This document shows positions 26,323-35,854 of a stretch of DNA of 64,000 bases, in pieces. How positions within the stretch are numbered: position 1 is the stretch's first letter; every line of letters starts with the position of its first letter. Both the position numbers and the translations under genes were made by a program. The DNA is from Rhodothermales bacterium (GTDB taxonomy: Bacteria > Bacteroidota > Rhodothermia > Rhodothermales > UBA10348), in NCBI GenBank assembly GCA_028284865.1, contig JANQQV010000007.1, forward strand, positions 1 through 64,000, written 5' to 3'. The notes below the pieces were generated by a model. That model ran no database searches. It saw only the letters and a program-made list of their open reading frames with translations, and was not told where the DNA came from.

Positions 26323-28041
26323 TTAGACAGATCTCTCGGACCGTTTTGGTTCGTCCTGGCTTGTGGGCTCAGCGTCTTCGGCCCGGGTTGTATCCAGTAC
26401 AAGCTTGGCCAGCAATCGAATCTGATCATTGAGCCGTTTTGCAGCCTCAACGGCGTCTGATTCCAGCCCCAAGGTGCGAGCTCGTTCGCCTGAGGAGGCG
26501 CCAAGTTGATCCAGCAGATGGGTTCGGATGGATTCGATCTCTACCTTCAAATGGGGTTTCGTTCGCCGGACTTTCTTGGCCTTTTTGCGATCGGCATGCT
26601 CAAGGGCATCCAAGACCATCTCCAGATGGCCACCCACCTGCCTCAATAAAGCCGAAAGTCGTTTGGCCGTTTCCTGCGAAAAGTCAGATCTGAGCCGCAG
26701 TCGATCCTCACTCTCTTGCCCGAACCTCGTTTCAAGCTCGTCACCCATGTTTTCAAGCAGCGTGGCTGCACCGACGTAGCACCGAACCCGTTGCACATCG
26801 CTCGTACTGAGACGCCTGGCAGATATCCGGCCGAGGTACTCATTGATGGCCAAATAAAGCGTGTCCAATTCGTTGTCGAGGGATCGTAGACCCTCATGCT
26901 TTTCGTCCCTCGCTTCCACAACCCCTGCAGCAAGCTGGATCATTTCGTGAACACGCTCTCCCATCCGTGCCAGCTCCAAACCAACCCGGTCAAGTGCTAG
27001 AACAGGCGTATCGATCAAGGTATCGTCCAAATATTTGGGCCTGACGAATCCTGGCTCTGTCTCCTTTCGGTCTGGAATGATCTTGCGGACCACCTTGACC
27101 ATGGGTCCTGCAAAACCAATCAGGACAAGGGTGTTGACAACGTTGAACACCGTATGTGCATTCGCAATTTCTCTAGGTACCCGCACAGAAGCTTCCCGTA
27201 TCCCACCCACTCCACTGTCACTGGTCATCCAATCAACAATCATGACCAACTGGTCAATCAATCCGACCCAGATCAACACGCCAGCCACATTGAAAATGAC
27301 ATGGACAAGGGCTGCCCGCTTTGCGTCCACGGATTTGCCAGTCGCCGCCAACCAGGCTGTCACACACGTTCCGACATTCGCTCCTAGCGCCAGCGCAATA
27401 CCACCTTCCAAGCTCAGCAATCCTTGAGATGCCAAGACGATAACAATTGCAGTAGTGGCTGATGAACTTTGCACGAGTGCCGTGAATGCAGCGCCCAACA
27501 AAATGCCCGTGATGGGAGAAGAAACGGACTTCATTGCCTCAAGAAAGGGAGGATAATCCCGCAACGGTGCGGTTGCGTCCGACATCAGCGTCATGCCATA
27601 AAACACCAGGCCGAGGGCAAGAAGAACAAGAAAGCCGGTCCGATACTGCTCCTTATCCAGAAACACGTATCCCAATCCTCCAGCTGCTATGAATGCGAGA
27701 GCGGCCTTAGTGACCTTGAAGGAGATGATTTGCGCAGTGATCGTTGTGCCGATGTTGGCACCCATGATCACCCCAACAGCCTGCGTGAGATCCAGCAAAC
27801 CGGCAGAAATAAACCCTACAACCAGTACCGTGGTAACCGAAGAGGACTGAATAACCGATGTTACAAACGCCCCGGCCAGGACTCCTTTGAAGCGATTGGA
27901 CGTCATGCGCTCCAGAACCTTCTTCATGGCGGATCCCGCCATTCTTTTCAAGCCATCTGTCAGCAACAGCAGACCGAAAAGAAAGAGGGATAACCCTGCC
28001 AACAAGGTTATGAGTGGCGTAATCCAGTTGAATGAGTCCAT
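26323..28041 (-). CDS. Na+/phosphate cotransporter with C-terminal PhoU-like domain
   Basis: 572-residue NptA/PNaS-family inner-membrane symporter (PF02690 type). Two inverted repeats carry the QSSS motifs: VIQSSSVTTVLV in the first and LVQSSSATTAIVIV in the second. About eight transmembrane segments end near residue 300. The C-terminal 230 residues are a helical PhoU-like domain in the cytoplasm, implying Pi-sensing. The ATG at 28041 is chosen because a GGGGGA lies 5-10 bases ahead; an ATG at 28062 also exists. It is divergent to the Pst operon, sharing a Pho-box-like region. Confidence 0.92.
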   Translation of the reverse strand: MDSFNWITPLITLLAGLSLFLFGLLLLTDGLKRMAGSAMKKVLERMTSNRFKGVLAGAFVTSVIQSSSVTTVLVVGFISAGLLDLTQAVGVIMGANIGTTITAQIISFKVTKAALAFIAAGGLGYVFLDKEQYRTGFLVLLALGLVFYGMTLMSDATAPLRDYPPFLEAMKSVSSPITGILLGAAFTALVQSSSATTAIVIVLASQGLLSLEGGIALALGANVGTCVTAWLAATGKSVDAKRAALVHVIFNVAGVLIWVGLIDQLVMIVDWMTSDSGVGGIREASVRVPREIANAHTVFNVVNTLVLIGFAGPMVKVVRKIIPDRKETEPGFVRPKYLDDTLIDTPVLALDRVGLELARMGERVHEMIQLAAGVVEARDEKHEGLRSLDNELDTLYLAINEYLGRISARRLSTSDVQRVRCYVGAATLLENMGDELETRFGQESEDRLRLRSDFSQETAKRLSALLRQVGGHLEMVLDALEHADRKKAKKVRRTKPHLKVEIESIRTHLLDQLGASSGERARTLGLESDAVEAAKRLNDQIRLLAKLVLDTTRAEDAEPTSQDEPKRSERSV

Positions 28042-28132
28042 GTGAAGGATTTCCCCCCGCATTCAAGACAGAGATAACATTGGGGTAATCCTCAGTTTAC
28101 CTCTTCTTGCAATGTTGACCAGTTTGGGTTCA

Positions 28133-28220: not shown

Positions 28221-29210
28221 ATGTCACGTCTTCTATCAGCCTTCGGCCTCTTGGCCGTTGCAGGCTTGCTATGGCCTGCCGTGTCTCACGCCCAGGATAA
28301 TGTCTCTTTCAAGGGCGTCATCTTTTCCGATTACAACTACCTCGTTTCGTCACCTGACGAAGCGCTTGAAGGAGAAAACAACTTCGGTTTCCGCCGATAT
28401 CGCCTGACAACCGACTTTGATCTCTCCGATAAATTTGATGGCCGACTCCGATTTGAAGGAGACGACGGTCAAACGACCGATCAGGGCAAGCCTGCACCGT
28501 TCGTCAAGGATCTCTACTTACGCTGGAATGATGCTCTCGGCGAAGGGCACCGCATTCAGTTCGGTCTCTTCCGTCCTGCTCTCTGGGGAGCCTCCGAAGA
28601 TCAGTGGGGATATCGCGCCCTCGAAAAGACCATTCGTGACCGAGTCGGTATAGCTTCTTCCCGCGATATCGGAATCGGCGTCGACGGTCCAATCAACAAC
28701 GATGGTACGCTCACCTACCACCTTACCGTGGGAAACAACTCGGGTGGCAAGAAGGAGACCAACAAGTACAAGCGCGTCTACGGCACCCTTACCTACGAGG
28801 TCAATGACCAATTCGAGGTCTCTGGCGGCTCTGACTACTACTCGTTCGACGGTGGCTCCACACTCAACTGGAGCGCATTCGCCGGATATACGATGGACAA
28901 AACGCGGATCGGCGTTGAGGGCTATCTAAGCACGCGTTCAATGGACGGCGAAGACGACGACGATACGCGCATTGGCGTCTCAGCATACGCCAATACAGAC
29001 ATCTCAGAAGACTACCGTCTCATTGTCCGCTACGACCGCACGGATCGTGACAACATGGGAGCTGATAGCTACTCCGACTGGTTTGTGGTCGGGTTTGCCT
29101 ACCTGGCGGACAAGAACGTCCAGATCATACCCAACATCGTCTACGAGAAGCACGACGCCGACGATAACGCTGAGTTAATGGCACGACTGACACTGTGGGC
29201 TAAATTCTAG
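28221..29210 (+). CDS. Outer-membrane porin (phosphate-selective porin type)
   Basis: 329 residues with an N-terminal signal peptide (hydrophobic core LLSAFGLLAVAGLLW, cleavage near SHA-QD). The mature part is alternating amphipathic strands typical of a 16-strand barrel, with loops rich in Asp and Gly (for example a DGEDDDD stretch) and a C-terminal Phe (TLWAKF), the classical outer-membrane sorting signal. It is first in the pst operon, 55 bases ahead of pstS. By position it most likely admits phosphate, like OprO/OprP, although basic phosphate-binding residues cannot be verified from sequence alone. Confidence 0.8.
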   Translation: MSRLLSAFGLLAVAGLLWPAVSHAQDNVSFKGVIFSDYNYLVSSPDEALEGENNFGFRRYRLTTDFDLSDKFDGRLRFEGDDGQTTDQGKPAPFVKDLYLRWNDALGEGHRIQFGLFRPALWGASEDQWGYRALEKTIRDRVGIASSRDIGIGVDGPINNDGTLTYHLTVGNNSGGKKETNKYKRVYGTLTYEVNDQFEVSGGSDYYSFDGGSTLNWSAFAGYTMDKTRIGVEGYLSTRSMDGEDDDDTRIGVSAYANTDISEDYRLIVRYDRTDRDNMGADSYSDWFVVGFAYLADKNVQIIPNIVYEKHDADDNAELMARLTLWAKF

Positions 29211-29265: not shown

Positions 29266-30153
29266 ATGACACGCAATCTTTTCACCCTCCTTGTTGCCAT
29301 CGTATTCCTGGCCGGCTGTGGCCGTCCTGATGGCGAATCCTCCCGTTCTGTCATTCAGAACAAGGGCTCCGACACACTCGTGAACGTTGCCCAGGCTTGG
29401 GCCGAGGAGTACCAGACCGTCAAACCTGACGTTGCTGTCGCCGTAACCGGTGGTGGTAGCGGTACGGGCATCGCATCCTTGATGAACGGCACCGTCGACA
29501 TCGCCAACGCCTCCCGGAGCATCAAGGACTCCGAGCGTGAGAACCTCGTAGCCAATGGCCACAACCCCGTTGAATTCGTAGTCGGTTTCGACGCGCTGGC
29601 CATCTTCCTGCACAACGACAACCCCATCCAGGAGATTTCGGTTGAGCAGCTCAAGGCCATCTATGCTGATGGCGGCGAACTGGAGCGCTGGTCCCAGCTT
29701 GGCGTCACCGTTCCTGGCTGCTCTTCGGATGAAATCATCCGCATCAGCCGTCAGAACAACTCCGGAACGTACGCCTACTTCCGCGAAGCTGTACTGGATG
29801 ACGAGGACTTCAAACTTGGCTCGCGTGACATGCATGGATCCAAAGACGTTGTAGATCTCGTAGCCAACACGGCTTGCGCCATCGGCTACAGCGGTCTCGC
29901 TTACGCTTCAGACGAAGTTCACATGCCAGCGGTATCTTCGGACGGCGGACAGACGTTCGTCGTACCTTCAGTTGACACAGCCATCGATGGTACCTACCCG
30001 ATCGCCCGTCCGCTGCTCATGTACACGGCAGATCAGCCTGAAGGCGCTATCGCTGAGTACCTTGAATGGATCATGAGCAACGAAGCTCAGTGCATCATCA
30101 AGGAAAAAGGGTATGCACCTGCCGGCCCGGTCGAGTGCACCGCAAGCATGTAA
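29266..30153 (+). CDS. pstS: Phosphate-binding lipoprotein PstS
   Basis: Periplasmic phosphate receptor of the ABC transporter. The lipoprotein signal has a lipobox LAGC (Cys near residue 18), so the mature protein is anchored to a membrane. Phosphate-binding features include GSDTLVN at the N-terminal lobe, TGGGSGTG in the loop and SGTYAYFRE in the hinge lobe. 295 residues is a typical length. It is followed after 31 bases by the phoU-like gene, whereas pstC, pstA and pstB come later. Confidence 0.94.
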   Translation: MTRNLFTLLVAIVFLAGCGRPDGESSRSVIQNKGSDTLVNVAQAWAEEYQTVKPDVAVAVTGGGSGTGIASLMNGTVDIANASRSIKDSERENLVANGHNPVEFVVGFDALAIFLHNDNPIQEISVEQLKAIYADGGELERWSQLGVTVPGCSSDEIIRISRQNNSGTYAYFREAVLDDEDFKLGSRDMHGSKDVVDLVANTACAIGYSGLAYASDEVHMPAVSSDGGQTFVVPSVDTAIDGTYPIARPLLMYTADQPEGAIAEYLEWIMSNEAQCIIKEKGYAPAGPVECTASM

Positions 30154-30184: not shown

Positions 30185-31243
30185 ATGTCTCTTCTTGAAC
30201 AGCGCCTGGCCAACGATCTGCAGGATATCCAGTCGGGTATCCTGCGGCTCGGCCGCGGCGTTCACAAAGCGCTCTCCAATGCCGTCCAGGGACTGCTGAC
30301 AGGCAACAAGACCTTGTCGTACCAGACGGTTCTCGGAGATCATCCCGTCAACCGCGAGGTAGACGCACTGAACTTGAAGTGTCATCGCTTCATTGCCAAG
30401 CATCTGCCTTCGGCGGGGCATCTGCGCTTCATTTCCTCTTCCCTGCGCATCATCATCCTGATCGAGCGTCTGGGAGACTACGCGGTGACCATATCACGGG
30501 AAGCTGCTCAGCTTGACTCGCCGCTTCAGGGCTCGTTCAAGACGGACCTGGAGAAGATGGGTGCTGACGCTCTGGAGATGCTGGATCAGGCATTGACTGC
30601 GTACGAAAACCAGGACGCTTCCCTTGCCGAAGAAACGGCTGGAATGGCCAGAAAGGTAGACCGGGACTATGTCCTGGCATATTCCGATCTGCTCGTCCCG
30701 GACGGCGCCAGCCTGTCCCGTAGCGATCAATTCGGTCGCCTTGTCATCATTCGTCAAATCGAGCGCGTCAGCGACCAGGCGAAGAATCTCTGTGAAGAAG
30801 TCATCTTTGCAGAAACAGGCGAAACGAAACAGCGACGCAGGTACCGCCTCGTGTTTTTGGACAGCAAGGATGACGGTGCCACACAGATGGCCGTCGCCAT
30901 CTGCCGCAAGTATCATGCTGATCGCATCCAGGCGGATTCCATGGGATCCGAACCAGCAGATGCCATTCGCTCTGATGTACGGGAACTGTGCGAGGAAAGA
31001 GGATTCGATCTGAGCGGACTGGATCCGAGCAGCACCTATCAGGACGAGGCCAACTGGACCGGTCATGATGTCGTGATCACGATCGATTCGGATATCTCCG
31101 AATATGTCGATCGTCTTCCCTACGGCCTGGTACCGATCCGATGGGACCTACCCTTAGATGCCCCGCTTGAGTCCACCTTCCAGGTCATTTCCGGCCAGGT
31201 TGACGATCTCGTCCACCTGGTTCGTGGACCGGCCACTTCCTGA
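30185..31243 (+). CDS. PhoU-type regulator fused to a degenerate LMW-phosphatase/ArsC-like domain
   Basis: 352 residues; ATG at 30185 was chosen because the upstream codons overlap pstS. Residues 1-210 form a PhoU protein of two three-helix repeats (EQRLANDLQDIQSGIL..., second repeat around LGDYAVTISREAAQ). Residues 217-340 resemble low-molecular-weight phosphatase/arsenate reductase: beta-strand RLVFLDSKDDGATQMAVAI in the place of the FVCxGNxCRS loop, then a DSMGSEP-type turn, a long helix and a WDLPLDAP end like the ArsC WGLPDP. The phosphate loop has lost both Cys and Arg, so catalysis is not expected; a ligand-sensing role is inferred. It lies in the pst operon between pstS and pstC. Confidence 0.85.
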   Translation: MSLLEQRLANDLQDIQSGILRLGRGVHKALSNAVQGLLTGNKTLSYQTVLGDHPVNREVDALNLKCHRFIAKHLPSAGHLRFISSSLRIIILIERLGDYAVTISREAAQLDSPLQGSFKTDLEKMGADALEMLDQALTAYENQDASLAEETAGMARKVDRDYVLAYSDLLVPDGASLSRSDQFGRLVIIRQIERVSDQAKNLCEEVIFAETGETKQRRRYRLVFLDSKDDGATQMAVAICRKYHADRIQADSMGSEPADAIRSDVRELCEERGFDLSGLDPSSTYQDEANWTGHDVVITIDSDISEYVDRLPYGLVPIRWDLPLDAPLESTFQVISGQVDDLVHLVRGPATS

Positions 31244-31257
31244 TCGCACCCCGATCC

Positions 31258-32175
31258 ATGTCAGAAAACACCCTAGCCCCGAGCCAGCTTGACCAGCGGG
31301 ACGCCTCTTGGTATGTCGACAAGCTGGTCCAAATACTGATGTTCGTTGGTGGCATTTCGGCCATCATCTTCATCATCGGCATCTTCGTGTTCATCACCAA
31401 GGAAGGTCTTGGCTTCCTGTTTGAAGGTTTCTCGTTCAAAGAGTTCTTCGGGTCCATCAATTGGCGACCCACATCGGCCAATCCAACCTATGGCGCCCTC
31501 GCGCTCATTGTAGGAACGGCCAGTGTGACGGGTGTTGCCATGTTGGTGGCCATCCCGTTCTCTCTGGGCGCTGCTGTGTATATCAGCGAATTCGCCACCG
31601 GAAGAACAAAAGAGACCTTGAAGGTGCTCGTGGAGCTCCTGGCCGCCATTCCATCGGTGGTCTGGGGATTCATCGGGATGAGCATCATGAATGAGTTCAT
31701 CATCGAGGTCTTCGATGTCCCGATTGGACTCAACGTGCTGAATGCCGGCATCATCCTCGGATTGATGGCTGCCCCCATCATGACAACCATTGCGGAAGAC
31801 GCGCTCAAGGCCGTGCCCGATCGCTATCGGGAAGCAGCAGAAGCCATGGGTGCCACGCGTTGGCAGATCATCCGTCAGGTCATCATGCCTGCAGCAAAGA
31901 ACGGGCTCGTATCTGCTGTCTTGCTTGGTGTCGGTCGCGGATTCGGAGAAACGATGGCCGTCCTCATGGCCAGTGGCCACGCCATCAATATTCCGACCAG
32001 CCCCTTCGATTCTGTTCGAGCCCTCACGGCCACGATTGCTGCCGAGTTGGGTGAGACCGCTCAAGGCTCTGAACATTACGGAGCCCTGTTCGCCCTGGGC
32101 ATCTTCCTGTTCATCATCACTTTCATCATCAACCTAGCGGCTGACCTCGTGGTCCGCGGGATTCGGAAGAAATGA
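31258..32175 (+). CDS. pstC: Phosphate ABC transporter permease PstC
   Basis: 305-residue inner-membrane permease with about six membrane segments and a short cytoplasmic N-terminus. The conserved EAA loop that docks on PstB is EAAEAMGATRWQIIRQVIMPAAKNG. The conserved GRGFGETMAVLMASGH and PSVVWGFIG motifs mark PstC. Its stop overlaps pstA by 4 bases (ATGA), so it is translationally coupled. Confidence 0.95.
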   Translation: MSENTLAPSQLDQRDASWYVDKLVQILMFVGGISAIIFIIGIFVFITKEGLGFLFEGFSFKEFFGSINWRPTSANPTYGALALIVGTASVTGVAMLVAIPFSLGAAVYISEFATGRTKETLKVLVELLAAIPSVVWGFIGMSIMNEFIIEVFDVPIGLNVLNAGIILGLMAAPIMTTIAEDALKAVPDRYREAAEAMGATRWQIIRQVIMPAAKNGLVSAVLLGVGRGFGETMAVLMASGHAINIPTSPFDSVRALTATIAAELGETAQGSEHYGALFALGIFLFIITFIINLAADLVVRGIRKK

Positions 32176-33050
32176 CGGCACGTTTTGCTGCAACAGAGCT
32201 CAATCTGAGCAATTACCGGACGGAGCGCCGTTATCGTCTCATGCTATTCAGCATGACCGCGATGCTCGTACTGCCGGTCTTGATCATCCTGGGCATTCTC
32301 GTCCTGAAGGGGGCTCCGATGATCTCCTGGGAGTTCCTGTTTGAGTTCCCGAGACGCGGAATGACCGAGGGCGGTATCTACCCTGCCCTCCTGGGGACCA
32401 TCTTCATCGTGGTGGTGGACTTGATCTTCGCCATGCCGATTGGTGTCGCCGCTGCGATCTATCTGTCTGAATATGCTCCGGACAACTGGTTGACCCGGGC
32501 CATCAACCTGGCCATCATCAACCTGGCCGGTGTGCCGTCCATCGTGCACGCCCTGTTCGGTGTCGGAGCCTTTGTGATTTTCTTCGGATTCGGTACGAGT
32601 ATTCTCGCCGCTGCCCTCACGGTAGCCATCATGACTCTGCCGCTCGTGATTGTTGCGACTCGCGAATCCCTGCAGGCGGTGCCCCAAGCTTTCCGCGAGG
32701 CATGCTGGAGCATGGGAGCCTCAAGATGGCAGACCATTTTCACGGTGGTCCTTCCAAACGCCATCAGCGGGATCCTGACCGGTCTGATTCTGGAGGTCTC
32801 CCGAACTGCCGGAGAGACCGCCCCGATCATGTTCACCGGTGCTGCGTTCTTCCTTCCATTCCTGCCGGAATCGGTATTCGAACAGACGATGGCGCTTTCC
32901 CTTCATTTGTATGTCGTTTCGACGCAGGTGCCGGAAGTCCCGGAAGCGTTGCCCTACGGGGTGGCGCTCGTGCTGATTGGTATCGTCCTGATCATGAATG
33001 CTATCTCCATCGCGTTCCGGTCCTACCTGCGAGGTAAGAAGAAGTGGTAG
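32172..33050 (+). CDS. pstA: Phosphate ABC transporter permease PstA
   Basis: 292-residue inner-membrane permease of the Pst transporter with about six spans. The EAA loop reads REACWSMGASRWQTIFTVVLPNAISG, and the GETAPIMFTGAAFF segment is diagnostic of PstA. ATG overlaps the pstC stop, and its own stop (TAG at 33048) overlaps the GTG of the first pstB, giving a contiguous chain of couplings. Confidence 0.95.
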   Translation: MTARFAATELNLSNYRTERRYRLMLFSMTAMLVLPVLIILGILVLKGAPMISWEFLFEFPRRGMTEGGIYPALLGTIFIVVVDLIFAMPIGVAAAIYLSEYAPDNWLTRAINLAIINLAGVPSIVHALFGVGAFVIFFGFGTSILAAALTVAIMTLPLVIVATRESLQAVPQAFREACWSMGASRWQTIFTVVLPNAISGILTGLILEVSRTAGETAPIMFTGAAFFLPFLPESVFEQTMALSLHLYVVSTQVPEVPEALPYGVALVLIGIVLIMNAISIAFRSYLRGKKKW

Positions 33051-33817
33051 CAACGGAAACACGCACCAAGGTCCTCGAAGTCAACGACTTGTCGATTTCG
33101 TACGGTCCAAAGACTGCCATGTCCGGTTTGAACCTGGACGTGTATGAGAACGAGATCTTCGGCATCATCGGACCGGCAAATTCCGGAAAGACGTCCTTCT
33201 TGCGCGCCATCAACCGCATGGATGCGTTTGACACGCAGATGAAGGTCAGTGGATCACTTCGATTCATGGGTACCGAAGTATCTGCATGGCGCAACGCCTA
33301 CGCCCTTCGTCGTCAGATTGGCGTGGTCTTCCCGCTTCCAGTAGGACTCCCGATGTCCATCTATGACAACGTGGCATTCGGGGCTAAGCTTCGAGGTGTC
33401 AAGGGTAAGACTGCTTTGGATGAGGTTGTTGAGCGCTGCCTGACGCGTGCGGCCCTGTGGGACGAAGTGAAGGATCGCCTGGATTCGCTGGGAAGTCAGC
33501 TCTCTGGTGGACAGCAACAGCGCCTAACGATAGCTCGTGCGCTTTCCCAGGAGCCGACCCTGCTGATGCTGGACGAGTTCTCCATCGCCGTCGATCCCGT
33601 TACCACGATGCGGATCGAGGACGTGTTGAAAGAACTCAAGAAGGAAATGACCATCCTGCTTGTGACGAACCTCGTGCAGCAGGCTGAGCGCCTTGCCGAT
33701 CGGACGGCGCTGTTCTTGAACGGCTCCCTGATTGAGATCGGTGAGACGGATGCCCTCTTTGGGGGACAGACGCAGGATCAGAGAACGAAAGACTACCTGG
33801 AGGGACGTTTTGGCTGA
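33044..33817 (+). CDS. pstB1: Phosphate ABC transporter ATPase, divergent PstB1
   Basis: 257-residue ABC ATPase of the PstB family (SIYDNVAFG, LWDEVKDRL). Walker A is GPANSGKT (43-50), the signature LSGGQ (153-157) is intact and Walker B ends LDE (E178). However, the Q-loop glutamine is proline (VFPLPVG, P97, where PstB normally has VFQRPNP) and the H-loop histidine is asparagine (VTNL, N209). Start is GTG at 33044 overlapping pstA. These are the switch and coupling residues for the site formed by this subunit's own Walker motifs. The second PstB has the mirror defect, so an asymmetric heterodimer is likely. Confidence 0.92.
   Translation: MVATETRTKVLEVNDLSISYGPKTAMSGLNLDVYENEIFGIIGPANSGKTSFLRAINRMDAFDTQMKVSGSLRFMGTEVSAWRNAYALRRQIGVVFPLPVGLPMSIYDNVAFGAKLRGVKGKTALDEVVERCLTRAALWDEVKDRLDSLGSQLSGGQQQRLTIARALSQEPTLLMLDEFSIAVDPVTTMRIEDVLKELKKEMTILLVTNLVQQAERLADRTALFLNGSLIEIGETDALFGGQTQDQRTKDYLEGRFG
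33799..33812 (+). promoter_or_regulatory. Shine-Dalgarno and TTG start of pstB2
   Basis: GGAGGG at 33799-33804 stands 5 bases ahead of the TTG at 33810, inside the 3' end of pstB1. This fixes the start of the second ATPase gene and overlaps the first one by 8 bases, so the two subunits are made in a coupled manner. Confidence 0.75.
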
Positions 33818-34634
33818 GTTTGAAACACCCCAATCCGAAACGGGCCTGGACGAAATGCGAACCGATGGCGACTCGCGTATCGCCGTTCGCACGGACAAGC
33901 TGAATTTCTGGTATGGTGATTTCCAGGCACTGTTTGATGTCGATTTCGACGTCAAAGCTGGAATCGTTACTTCCCTGATTGGGCCTTCTGGATGTGGTAA
34001 GTCAACGCTCCTGCGATGCGTAAACCGTATCAACGAGCGTATCGGGAATGTCCGCACGGAAGGCAAAGTTGAAGTCCTTGGCCACGACATCTACGCACCA
34101 GAAGTCGACTTGACGCAAGTCCGAAGCCAGGTCGGCATGGTTTTCCAGCGTCCCAATCCCCTTCCGATTTCCATCCGCAAAAACATCCTTTTTGCCCATG
34201 GGCTGCACACCCAAGGGAAGACCTCCAAGTCGGATGAGGAAGCCATTGTAGAGTCAGCACTCAAGGAAGTGCTGCTATGGGACGACGTGAAGGACCGTCT
34301 GGATCGGGTAGCTACGGATTTGTCACTGGAACAGCAGCAGAAACTGTGTATTGCTCGCCTCCTTCCCGTGAAACCAGCCGTCCTTTTGATGGACGAACCC
34401 TGCTCGGCGCTTGATCCCAAGGCCACGACGGCGGTGGAAGAGCTAATCTGGAAACTCCGCGGTGACTACACCATCCTGATCGTGACACACAACATGGCAC
34501 AGGCACGTCGCGCCTCAGATGAGTGCGCATTCATGCTGCTGGGCAAGATGGTTGAACATCGCCGGACCGAAGACCTCTTCCTAACGCCCGGTAGCAAGCA
34601 GACAGCCGATTACATCGAAGGGCGTTACGGCTGA
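33810..34634 (+). CDS. pstB2: Phosphate ABC transporter ATPase, PstB2
   Basis: 274-residue second PstB. Walker A GPSGCGKST (58-66), Q-loop VFQRPNPLP (Q113), Walker B LLMDE (D195/E196), D-loop SALDP and H-loop VTHNM (H227) are canonical. The ABC signature, however, is LSLEQ (171-175) instead of LSGGQ, with both glycines that contact the gamma-phosphate in the partner lost. It also has a 26-residue N-terminal extension. TTG start at 33810 with a good Shine-Dalgarno. Last gene of the porin-pst operon. Paired with PstB1 it would build one complete and one degenerate ATP site. Confidence 0.92.
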   Translation: MAEFETPQSETGLDEMRTDGDSRIAVRTDKLNFWYGDFQALFDVDFDVKAGIVTSLIGPSGCGKSTLLRCVNRINERIGNVRTEGKVEVLGHDIYAPEVDLTQVRSQVGMVFQRPNPLPISIRKNILFAHGLHTQGKTSKSDEEAIVESALKEVLLWDDVKDRLDRVATDLSLEQQQKLCIARLLPVKPAVLLMDEPCSALDPKATTAVEELIWKLRGDYTILIVTHNMAQARRASDECAFMLLGKMVEHRRTEDLFLTPGSKQTADYIEGRYG

Positions 34635-34660: not shown

Positions 34661-35854
34661 TTATCCTTCAAGCTCTGCGTCCTCGGTGCGGTATCTCCGA
34701 CGCAATTCGTTCGATACCGTCTGTAGAATGGACCGCACCGTGCTTTCCTCATCATTGTTTGGGATGATGGAGACGTCATGATCGTCTGCCTCGTCCAACA
34801 GGAAAGACTGTAGGTCCCAGATGCGATCGATATTCTGAATATATCGCTCCGATCGCCTGGACTGAATCATATGGCCGCGCCCCTGTAGGCGCTTCTTTAG
34901 CCGCTTTTCCTTCAGTACTGCCAGCACTACGGGCACAACGACGAAGTCAAAGCGCTGCGCGATCTGGGCCATCAGCTGCGGGTGCAAATGCACGCCTTCA
35001 ATAATGAGCGAGACGTTCTCATTTGCCGTCCTGTTAAGGACCCCTTCGATTCCGACAGCAACCTGCGATGACTGGGTGAGATAGCCCTGGATCATCTCTT
35101 CCGAGCTTGCCGTGTCCCCACCCATGGGGAGCTTCGAAGAGGCTTCAAACGAAGAAGTATGCAACGTCGGAATAAGCCGTTCCGGAACGAGCAGACGCAT
35201 GATTTCGCGAAGCATGTCCGTAGACTGGGTCCGGACAATATCCAACCGGTGGGCGATCTCTGCACTGACCGAACTCTTCCCGCTTCCGGTGGTCCCCCCG
35301 ATCAGAATGACCATAGGCTTTCCGCTGTGTGAGAAGCGCACCCACCGTTCATAGTCCTCCGCAGCACTGCCGTGAGGTAGTGTCTTCAGGGCAGTCATGA
35401 CGCGCGTGGTGAGTTCCTCTGTCGCCACCTCAGAAATGCCCTCATCGATCAGGTCTTGTTCGATACGTGCTGCAATGTCATGCAACTCCTCCCTGGGCAG
35501 GGCACAAATTTCCAGGCTGTCCGCCAGCTGACTTTTCGAAAAAGGTCCCTCGGATCCATCAGATGTAATGACCCGAATAGCGGAGACTTCTTGCCGTGAT
35601 GTCAGGTAGGACTCGACCATTTGTTCAAGCCCTTCTTCCTGAAGTACTTCAGCCGTCAAATGACGCAGATCAGCCCGGTCAATACGGTCTTGTTTGGCCA
35701 GACGATCACGAACGATGGATGCAATCGCATACGACTCCTCAAAGTTCAATCCACTCTTCTGGAGTGAACGGGTCAAAATACCTCTGAGAAACGGTGCCGA
35801 AGTGCCGTCAGAGCTACTGACAACGTATAATCTGGATGGCTTCGAGGTTGCCAC
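34661..35854 (-). CDS. 2-phosphoglycerate-kinase-like P-loop kinase with two ATP-cone domains
   Basis: 397 residues. Two consecutive ATP-cone modules (about residues 7-85 and 92-155; FLRGILTRSL and FSKSQLADSL mark the cores) precede a P-loop kinase domain with GGTTGSGKSS and the TQSTDMLREIMR segment. The kinase resembles archaeal 2-phosphoglycerate kinase, which makes 2,3-bisphosphoglycerate, a precursor of cyclic diphosphoglycerate. The archaeal protein has an ATP-cone too, so regulation by nucleotide is likely. No cyclic DPG synthetase is near, so the bacterial product is uncertain. It is convergent to the pst operon. The activity is inferred, not established for this protein. Confidence 0.75.
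   Translation of the reverse strand: MATSKPSRLYVVSSSDGTSAPFLRGILTRSLQKSGLNFEESYAIASIVRDRLAKQDRIDRADLRHLTAEVLQEEGLEQMVESYLTSRQEVSAIRVITSDGSEGPFSKSQLADSLEICALPREELHDIAARIEQDLIDEGISEVATEELTTRVMTALKTLPHGSAAEDYERWVRFSHSGKPMVILIGGTTGSGKSSVSAEIAHRLDIVRTQSTDMLREIMRLLVPERLIPTLHTSSFEASSKLPMGGDTASSEEMIQGYLTQSSQVAVGIEGVLNRTANENVSLIIEGVHLHPQLMAQIAQRFDFVVVPVVLAVLKEKRLKKRLQGRGHMIQSRRSERYIQNIDRIWDLQSFLLDEADDHDVSIIPNNDEESTVRSILQTVSNELRRRYRTEDAELEG

Follow-up and report, generated by a model that had tools for sequence, protein, structure and literature searches.

A phosphate-transport (pst) operon in the genome of a Rhodothermales bacterium raises the question of why its PhoU protein, encoded between pstS and pstC, carries an additional domain with the appearance of an LMW phosphatase or arsenate reductase, and what such a domain could contribute to phosphate uptake. 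The window (the whole stretch of DNA that was analysed, 64,000 nucleotides) had been described in a first-pass annotation as encoding a complete PhoU fused to a catalytically inactive LMW-PTP/ArsC-like domain, for which a role in oxyanion or phosphate sensing was suggested.

Architecture of the fusion protein and fold of its tail

The gene and the parts of its product are as follows.

30185..31243, + strand: phoU-pseudo-arsC fusion gene (phoU*), starting at ATG 30185 and coding for 352 aa, stop included (open reading frame and translation)
30185..30817, + strand: PhoU part, residues 1-211, two PhoU repeats (Pfam PF01895, AlphaFold2 model, 69 relatives)
30824..31240, + strand: LMW-PTP/ArsC-fold domain, residues 214-352 with a core at about 218-347, predicted to be catalytically dead (profile, AlphaFold2, Foldseek)
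30860..30886, + strand: degenerate P-loop DSKDDGATQ, residues 226-234, with Cys replaced by Asp226 and Arg by Ala232 (family alignment, loop charge)

Residues 1-211 match PF01895 with an E-value of 2.8e-25 and two stretches over the cut-off, are modelled by AlphaFold2 as an all-helical domain and include the motifs E94xxxD98 and R194..D197, whose columns are invariant among the 69 relatives; the full-length fusion is predicted with a pLDDT of 92.6. The protein narrowly misses the NCBIfam equivalog TIGR02135 (125.2 bits, against a cut-off of 130.25) and is therefore classed as a PhoU-domain fusion protein rather than as a standard PhoU equivalog. The open reading frame, the PF01895 match and the homology of the tail bear out the description of a complete PhoU and an LMW-PTP/ArsC-like domain within one frame, and the residues originally quoted for the latter (DSKDDGATQ at 226-234, GSEP at 254-257 and WDLPLDAP at 320-327) are all present.

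Scanned by itself, the tail reaches 22.6 bits (E 1.4e-4) against the LMWPc family (PF01451), just under the cut-off of 23.2, so that proteins of this kind probably carry a plain PhoU annotation; when the whole fusion protein is scanned, Pfam reports no LMWPc match for the tail and NCBIfam gives a weak hint of ArsC. A PDB search with the single sequence retrieves Corynebacterium glutamicum ArsC at 6e-5. At the level of the family, 42 of 71 tails match LMWPc at E<=1e-3 (best 1.3e-9), and a profile of the same 71 tails finds ArsC structures in the PDB at E 7.6e-17 and, more weakly, LMW-PTP structures at about 1e-8 to 1e-3. Using the family alignment, AlphaFold2 predicts the tail with a pLDDT of 88.5 as a Rossmann-like fold with the strand/helix order of LMW-PTP, in agreement with the structural matches of the model: the top Foldseek hit is C. 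glutamicum ArsC1' (PDB 3t38, E 4.9e-10), to which it aligns with a Z-score of 19.0 over 131 residues at 3.0 Å, and its alignment to pI258 ArsC has a Z-score of 18.1 at 1.8-1.9 Å. Chance similarity and a helical bundle are both ruled out by the ArsC profile match, the AlphaFold2 fold and the Foldseek result. Judged from profiles and predicted models, the tail domain is homologous to ArsC/LMW-PTP and shares their fold, and the assignment made in the first-pass annotation withstood both the search for LMWPc homology and the structural comparison.

Distribution of the fusion and its degenerate active site

Relatives of the fusion protein, nearly all aligned over their full length, were found at 78 loci in a scan of a species-genome collection. 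Their hosts belong to Rhodothermales, Thermoanaerobaculia, Myxococcota, Krumholzibacteriota, Verrucomicrobiota and many Gammaproteobacteria, the latter including Thiodiazotropha, Chromatiales and symbionts of tubeworms and clams; the same fusion, which the first reading had suggested looking for in other PhoU proteins, is thus found at loci across six phyla. In 148 genomes sampled across the phylum around that of the window, the fused form occurs, among the matches listed, in 2, both from the same family as the genome of the window, and the remaining PhoU matches stop close to residue 213-245. In a tree of the PhoU part, all fused proteins group separately from the sampled ordinary PhoUs, in one supported clade that spans Rhodothermota, Pseudomonadota, Verrucomicrobiota, Acidobacteriota, Myxococcota and Krumholzibacteriota; of two rows in this clade that carry the label canonical, one is truncated close to a contig end and the other is degraded, and both align into the tail. 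The simplest reading of this topology would be a single fusion event followed by wide, patchy spread. No fused copy was detected on plasmids, as 0 of 37 matches in plasmid records cover 80% of the query.

The loss of the catalytic Cys and Arg, first noticed in the window protein, extends to the family, with a single exception for Arg. In an alignment of 69 members, the nucleophile position is occupied by Asp in 64 and otherwise by Gly, Glu or Asn, with Cys in none, and the P-loop Arg is lost in 68 and kept in one; the C-x5-R P-loop of the enzymes is accordingly absent from both the window tail domain and its family, as expected for a domain predicted to be catalytically dead. The DP general-acid motif lies within 8 residues of Trp320 in 9 of the 69 members only, the window protein having WDLPLDAP at this place. 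Moreover, the net charge of the P-loop is -3 in half of the members and mostly between -3 and -1 (-2 in the window), compared with +1 to +3 for the loops of three genuine ArsC proteins read from alignments. Ancestral catalysis or simple oxyanion binding by the tail domain appears unlikely on these grounds.

These features bear directly on the possibility that the dead ArsC domain is a sensor of phosphate, arsenate, a nucleotide or a phospho-metabolite that signals its state to PhoU. That the ArsC/LMW-PTP fold natively binds oxyanions, that the domain is attached to a phosphate regulator inside a phosphate operon and that Asn/Asp and Ser/Thr are still common in the P-loop all speak for such a function; however, a loop with the substitutions and charge described above should repel oxyanions, and a cation or the basic side chain of a partner would be a chemically better ligand for it. 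Because the P-loop is acidic and Arg-less, oxyanion sensing is disfavoured, though possible; the role originally suggested is not supported, and a ligand sensor in the wider sense is in our view unlikely.

Could the domain instead be a passive appendage that persisted after a single fusion event and serves folding or stability only? Most of it shows lower conservation than the PhoU part, its sole invariant residue being Trp320, and distant relatives are 19-31% identical to the window protein in their tails, against 25-44% over whole proteins. The dN/dS of the tail domain relative to four relatives is nevertheless 0.07-0.14, a range similar to that of the PhoU part and indicative of purifying selection; Trp320, Pro312, Lys215 and Asp226 are near-invariant; and the domain is retained in full-length members across six phyla, which together make a passive role quite improbable. 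By conservation, Asp226 ranks among the top ten positions in the tail domain, and for this reason looks selected rather than merely decayed. As far as alignments and substitution rates can tell, the domain is being maintained and is not decaying.

Least probable of all is an unusual catalysis with an Asp nucleophile, of HAD-like or receiver-like type: the nucleophile position is clearly non-random and the first strand plus loop, ILF(V/I)DEDN, recalls the acidic beta-1 end of receiver domains, but the P-loop Arg is gone, the general acid is rarely kept, profile homology points to ArsC and no second conserved Asp is found at the end of the third strand. The receiver-like reading of this acidic end is given little weight because a conserved phospho-acceptor Asp is lacking.

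The pst operon and its asymmetric ATPases

The remaining genes of the operon, in the order pstS-phoU*-pstC-pstA-pstB1-pstB2, are listed below.

29266..30153, + strand: pstS, phosphate-binding lipoprotein (TIGR02136, 231.7 bits, cut-off 206.6)
31258..32175, + strand: pstC, permease (TIGR02138, 275.2, cut-off 196.45)
32172..33050, + strand: pstA, permease (TIGR00974, 263.6, cut-off 193.45)
33044..33817, + strand: pstB1, ATPase with Q-loop Gln replaced by Pro, H-loop His replaced by Asn and LSGGQ intact (TIGR00972, 280.6, cut-off 343.2)
33855..34634, + strand: pstB2, ATPase with Walker, Q-loop and H-loop motifs intact and the signature LSLEQ (TIGR00972, 320.9, cut-off 343.2); ATG 33855 is taken as the likely start, a longer frame from TTG 33732 overlapping pstB1

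The fusion gene is flanked by pstS and pstC, as had been reported, and PstS, PstC and PstA of the window each exceed their curated cut-offs as components of a Pst importer. This arrangement is conserved: pstS lies directly 5' of phoU* at 67 of 67 testable non-verrucomicrobial loci, and pstC-pstA-pstB1-pstB2 follow 3' at 55 of the 56 loci for which the sequence suffices; 53 of these satisfy the rule applied, and L037 and L080 fail it solely through the start coordinate of pstC. Locus L015 has no pstB, a gap that is possibly an assembly effect, with a PstB1 motif elsewhere on the scaffold; at verrucomicrobial loci phoU* comes first and is followed by pstS-C-A-B1-B2. A promoter scan within the operon remained at background level.

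Several other genes of the genome are of note. Divergent to it, a Na/Pi cotransporter with C-terminal PhoU repeats of its own is encoded at 26323-28062 on the - strand; this is the sole other PhoU-domain protein found in the genome of the window, where a search for a separate ordinary PhoU gave none. A PhoR-like kinase of the same genome scores 264.5 bits, below a cut-off of 334.2 that is a proteobacterial one. Directly 5' of pstS, an outer-membrane porin-like gene (28221-29210, + strand), conserved in Rhodothermales loci, possibly codes for a phosphate porin. Beyond the operon, the gene at 34661-35854 (- strand) encodes an ATP-cone and P-loop kinase that resembles 2-phosphoglycerate kinase (PRK04220, 289.8 bits, cut-off 343); in other phyla, too, such 2-phosphoglycerate kinase-like genes are repeatedly found close to pst operons with a fused PhoU, and at two loci (L061 and L013) the nearby kinase homologue carries a fused phosphoglycerate-mutase domain.

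Both PstB proteins of the window fall below the TIGR00972 equivalog cut-off, and their motifs deviate in a manner that is constant throughout the family. In 56 of 56 cases, PstB1 keeps LSGGQ and has Pro for the Q-loop Gln (VVFPLP or MVAPLP), Asn for the H-loop His (VTNL) and DEF for DEP, whereas PstB2, also in 56 of 56, has intact Walker A, Q-loop, Walker B and H-loop motifs and LSLE[E/Q], LQLEQ or LALEE in place of LSGGQ; ordinary PstBs in the same survey retain LSGGQ, the H-loop His and DEP wherever these are readable. The losses are complementary and, with the other motifs intact, all fall into one composite ATP site, which is thereby degenerate while its counterpart is consensus. From these motifs, PstB1 and PstB2 are predicted to pair as a heterodimer whose two ATP sites differ in this way, and since PstB1 retains the Walker B Glu, the degenerate site could still hydrolyse slowly.

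How closely this asymmetry follows the fusion was assessed with DNA patterns. One for the PstB1 motif LDEFSIA[VI]D matches exactly once in each of 8 genomes selected for carrying the fusion, and not at all in the reversed control; in a sample of 369 gammaproteobacterial genomes it matches in 7, all 7 of which have a fused PhoU, the sample being centred on a known carrier (G197) that is counted among them. Conversely, a pattern for the PstB2 signature picked out two Bacteroidota genomes, G131 and G070 (L173, L188), with a more distant asymmetric pair that has the Q-loop Gln replaced by Ala, an H-loop Asn and LSLEQ, and in which an ordinary, unfused PhoU follows pstB2. These two genomes rule out a strict two-way linkage: ATPase asymmetry alone does not require the fusion. 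On the genomes compared, it appears as the broader of the two traits, and it is possibly also the older.

A model for PhoU* and its relation to known systems

The asymmetric PstB1/PstB2 pair of the same operon, not remarked on in the first reading, is the better clue to function. We propose that PhoU*, a PhoU joined to a pseudo-enzyme derived from ArsC/LMW-PTP, is a dedicated part of a distinct Pst variant in which it gates a PstB1/PstB2 heterodimer, a reading to which we assign a probability slightly better than even (about 0.55). In such a heterodimer, the Walker A and B motifs, Q-loop and H-loop of PstB2 would form the hydrolysing site together with the LSGGQ of PstB1; at the opposite site, the Walker motifs of PstB1, accompanied by Pro for Gln and Asn for His, would face the LSLE[E/Q] of PstB2, binding ATP and hydrolysing it poorly. 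PhoU* would cap or gate this pair, the role generally attributed to PhoU towards PstB, and the dead ArsC domain would most likely provide an extra surface for docking or allosteric control, by which PhoU is positioned on the asymmetric ATPase or a further partner is bound; the P-loop of the domain presents a conserved Asp where the enzyme would have the nucleophile and bound oxyanion. For the tail domain, docking within Pst is a likelier role than oxyanion sensing. A bolder version, in which these operons define a distinct class of phosphate importer whose PstB1/PstB2 heterodimer has one hydrolysing and one non-hydrolysing site and is controlled by a purpose-built PhoU that binds or reads the asymmetric ATPase through its dead ArsC domain, is tentative and would have odds somewhat below even.

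The means by which PhoU senses and controls Pst have long been an open question, and a PhoU-pseudo-enzyme fusion tied by its operon to a complementarily degenerate ATPase pair lends itself, as a natural system, to dissecting the contact between PhoU and ATPase and the direction of regulation. If the model is correct, a phosphate importer would join the ABC transporters with one degenerate site, treated for exporters in PMC7756269.

Literature searches, with coverage that leaves out most subscription journals, returned no paper on the fusion or on an asymmetric PstB pair; those combining PhoU with arsenate reductase or ArsC gave, among the titles listed, only genome surveys and unrelated work, and those with LMWPc, pseudophosphatase or LMW phosphotyrosine phosphatases nothing relevant. 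The component families are known, and their combination is apparently an undescribed variant of the standard Pst system.

Like E. coli-type PhoU (TIGR02135/PF01895), which is held to act via PstB and PhoR (PMC12096839), PhoU* has two PhoU repeats, an ExxxD-type motif and a place in the pst operon; unlike it, it adds a pseudo-ArsC domain of ~140 residues, and its gene lies between pstS and pstC, not behind pstB. The tail has fold and profile homology in common with the thioredoxin-, glutaredoxin- or mycothiol-dependent ArsC enzymes and LMW-PTP (PF01451; for example 3t38 and the arsenate reductase 2l17), from which it differs by its Cys being mostly Asp, by the loss of Arg and, mostly, of DP, and by its fusion behind PhoU. 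Adjacent pstB genes in a pst-phoU locus are also found in the tandem PstB1/PstB2 of Enterococcus faecalis (PMC12096839), whereas the pair described here is complementarily degenerate. The ABC exporters TM287/288, TAP and Pdr5 (PMC7756269) likewise combine a consensus with a degenerate composite ATP site, Pdr5 having an altered H-loop in one of its halves and the signature LNVEQ in the other; in contrast to these exporters, the present system is a phosphate importer with separate ATPase chains and a retained Walker B Glu.
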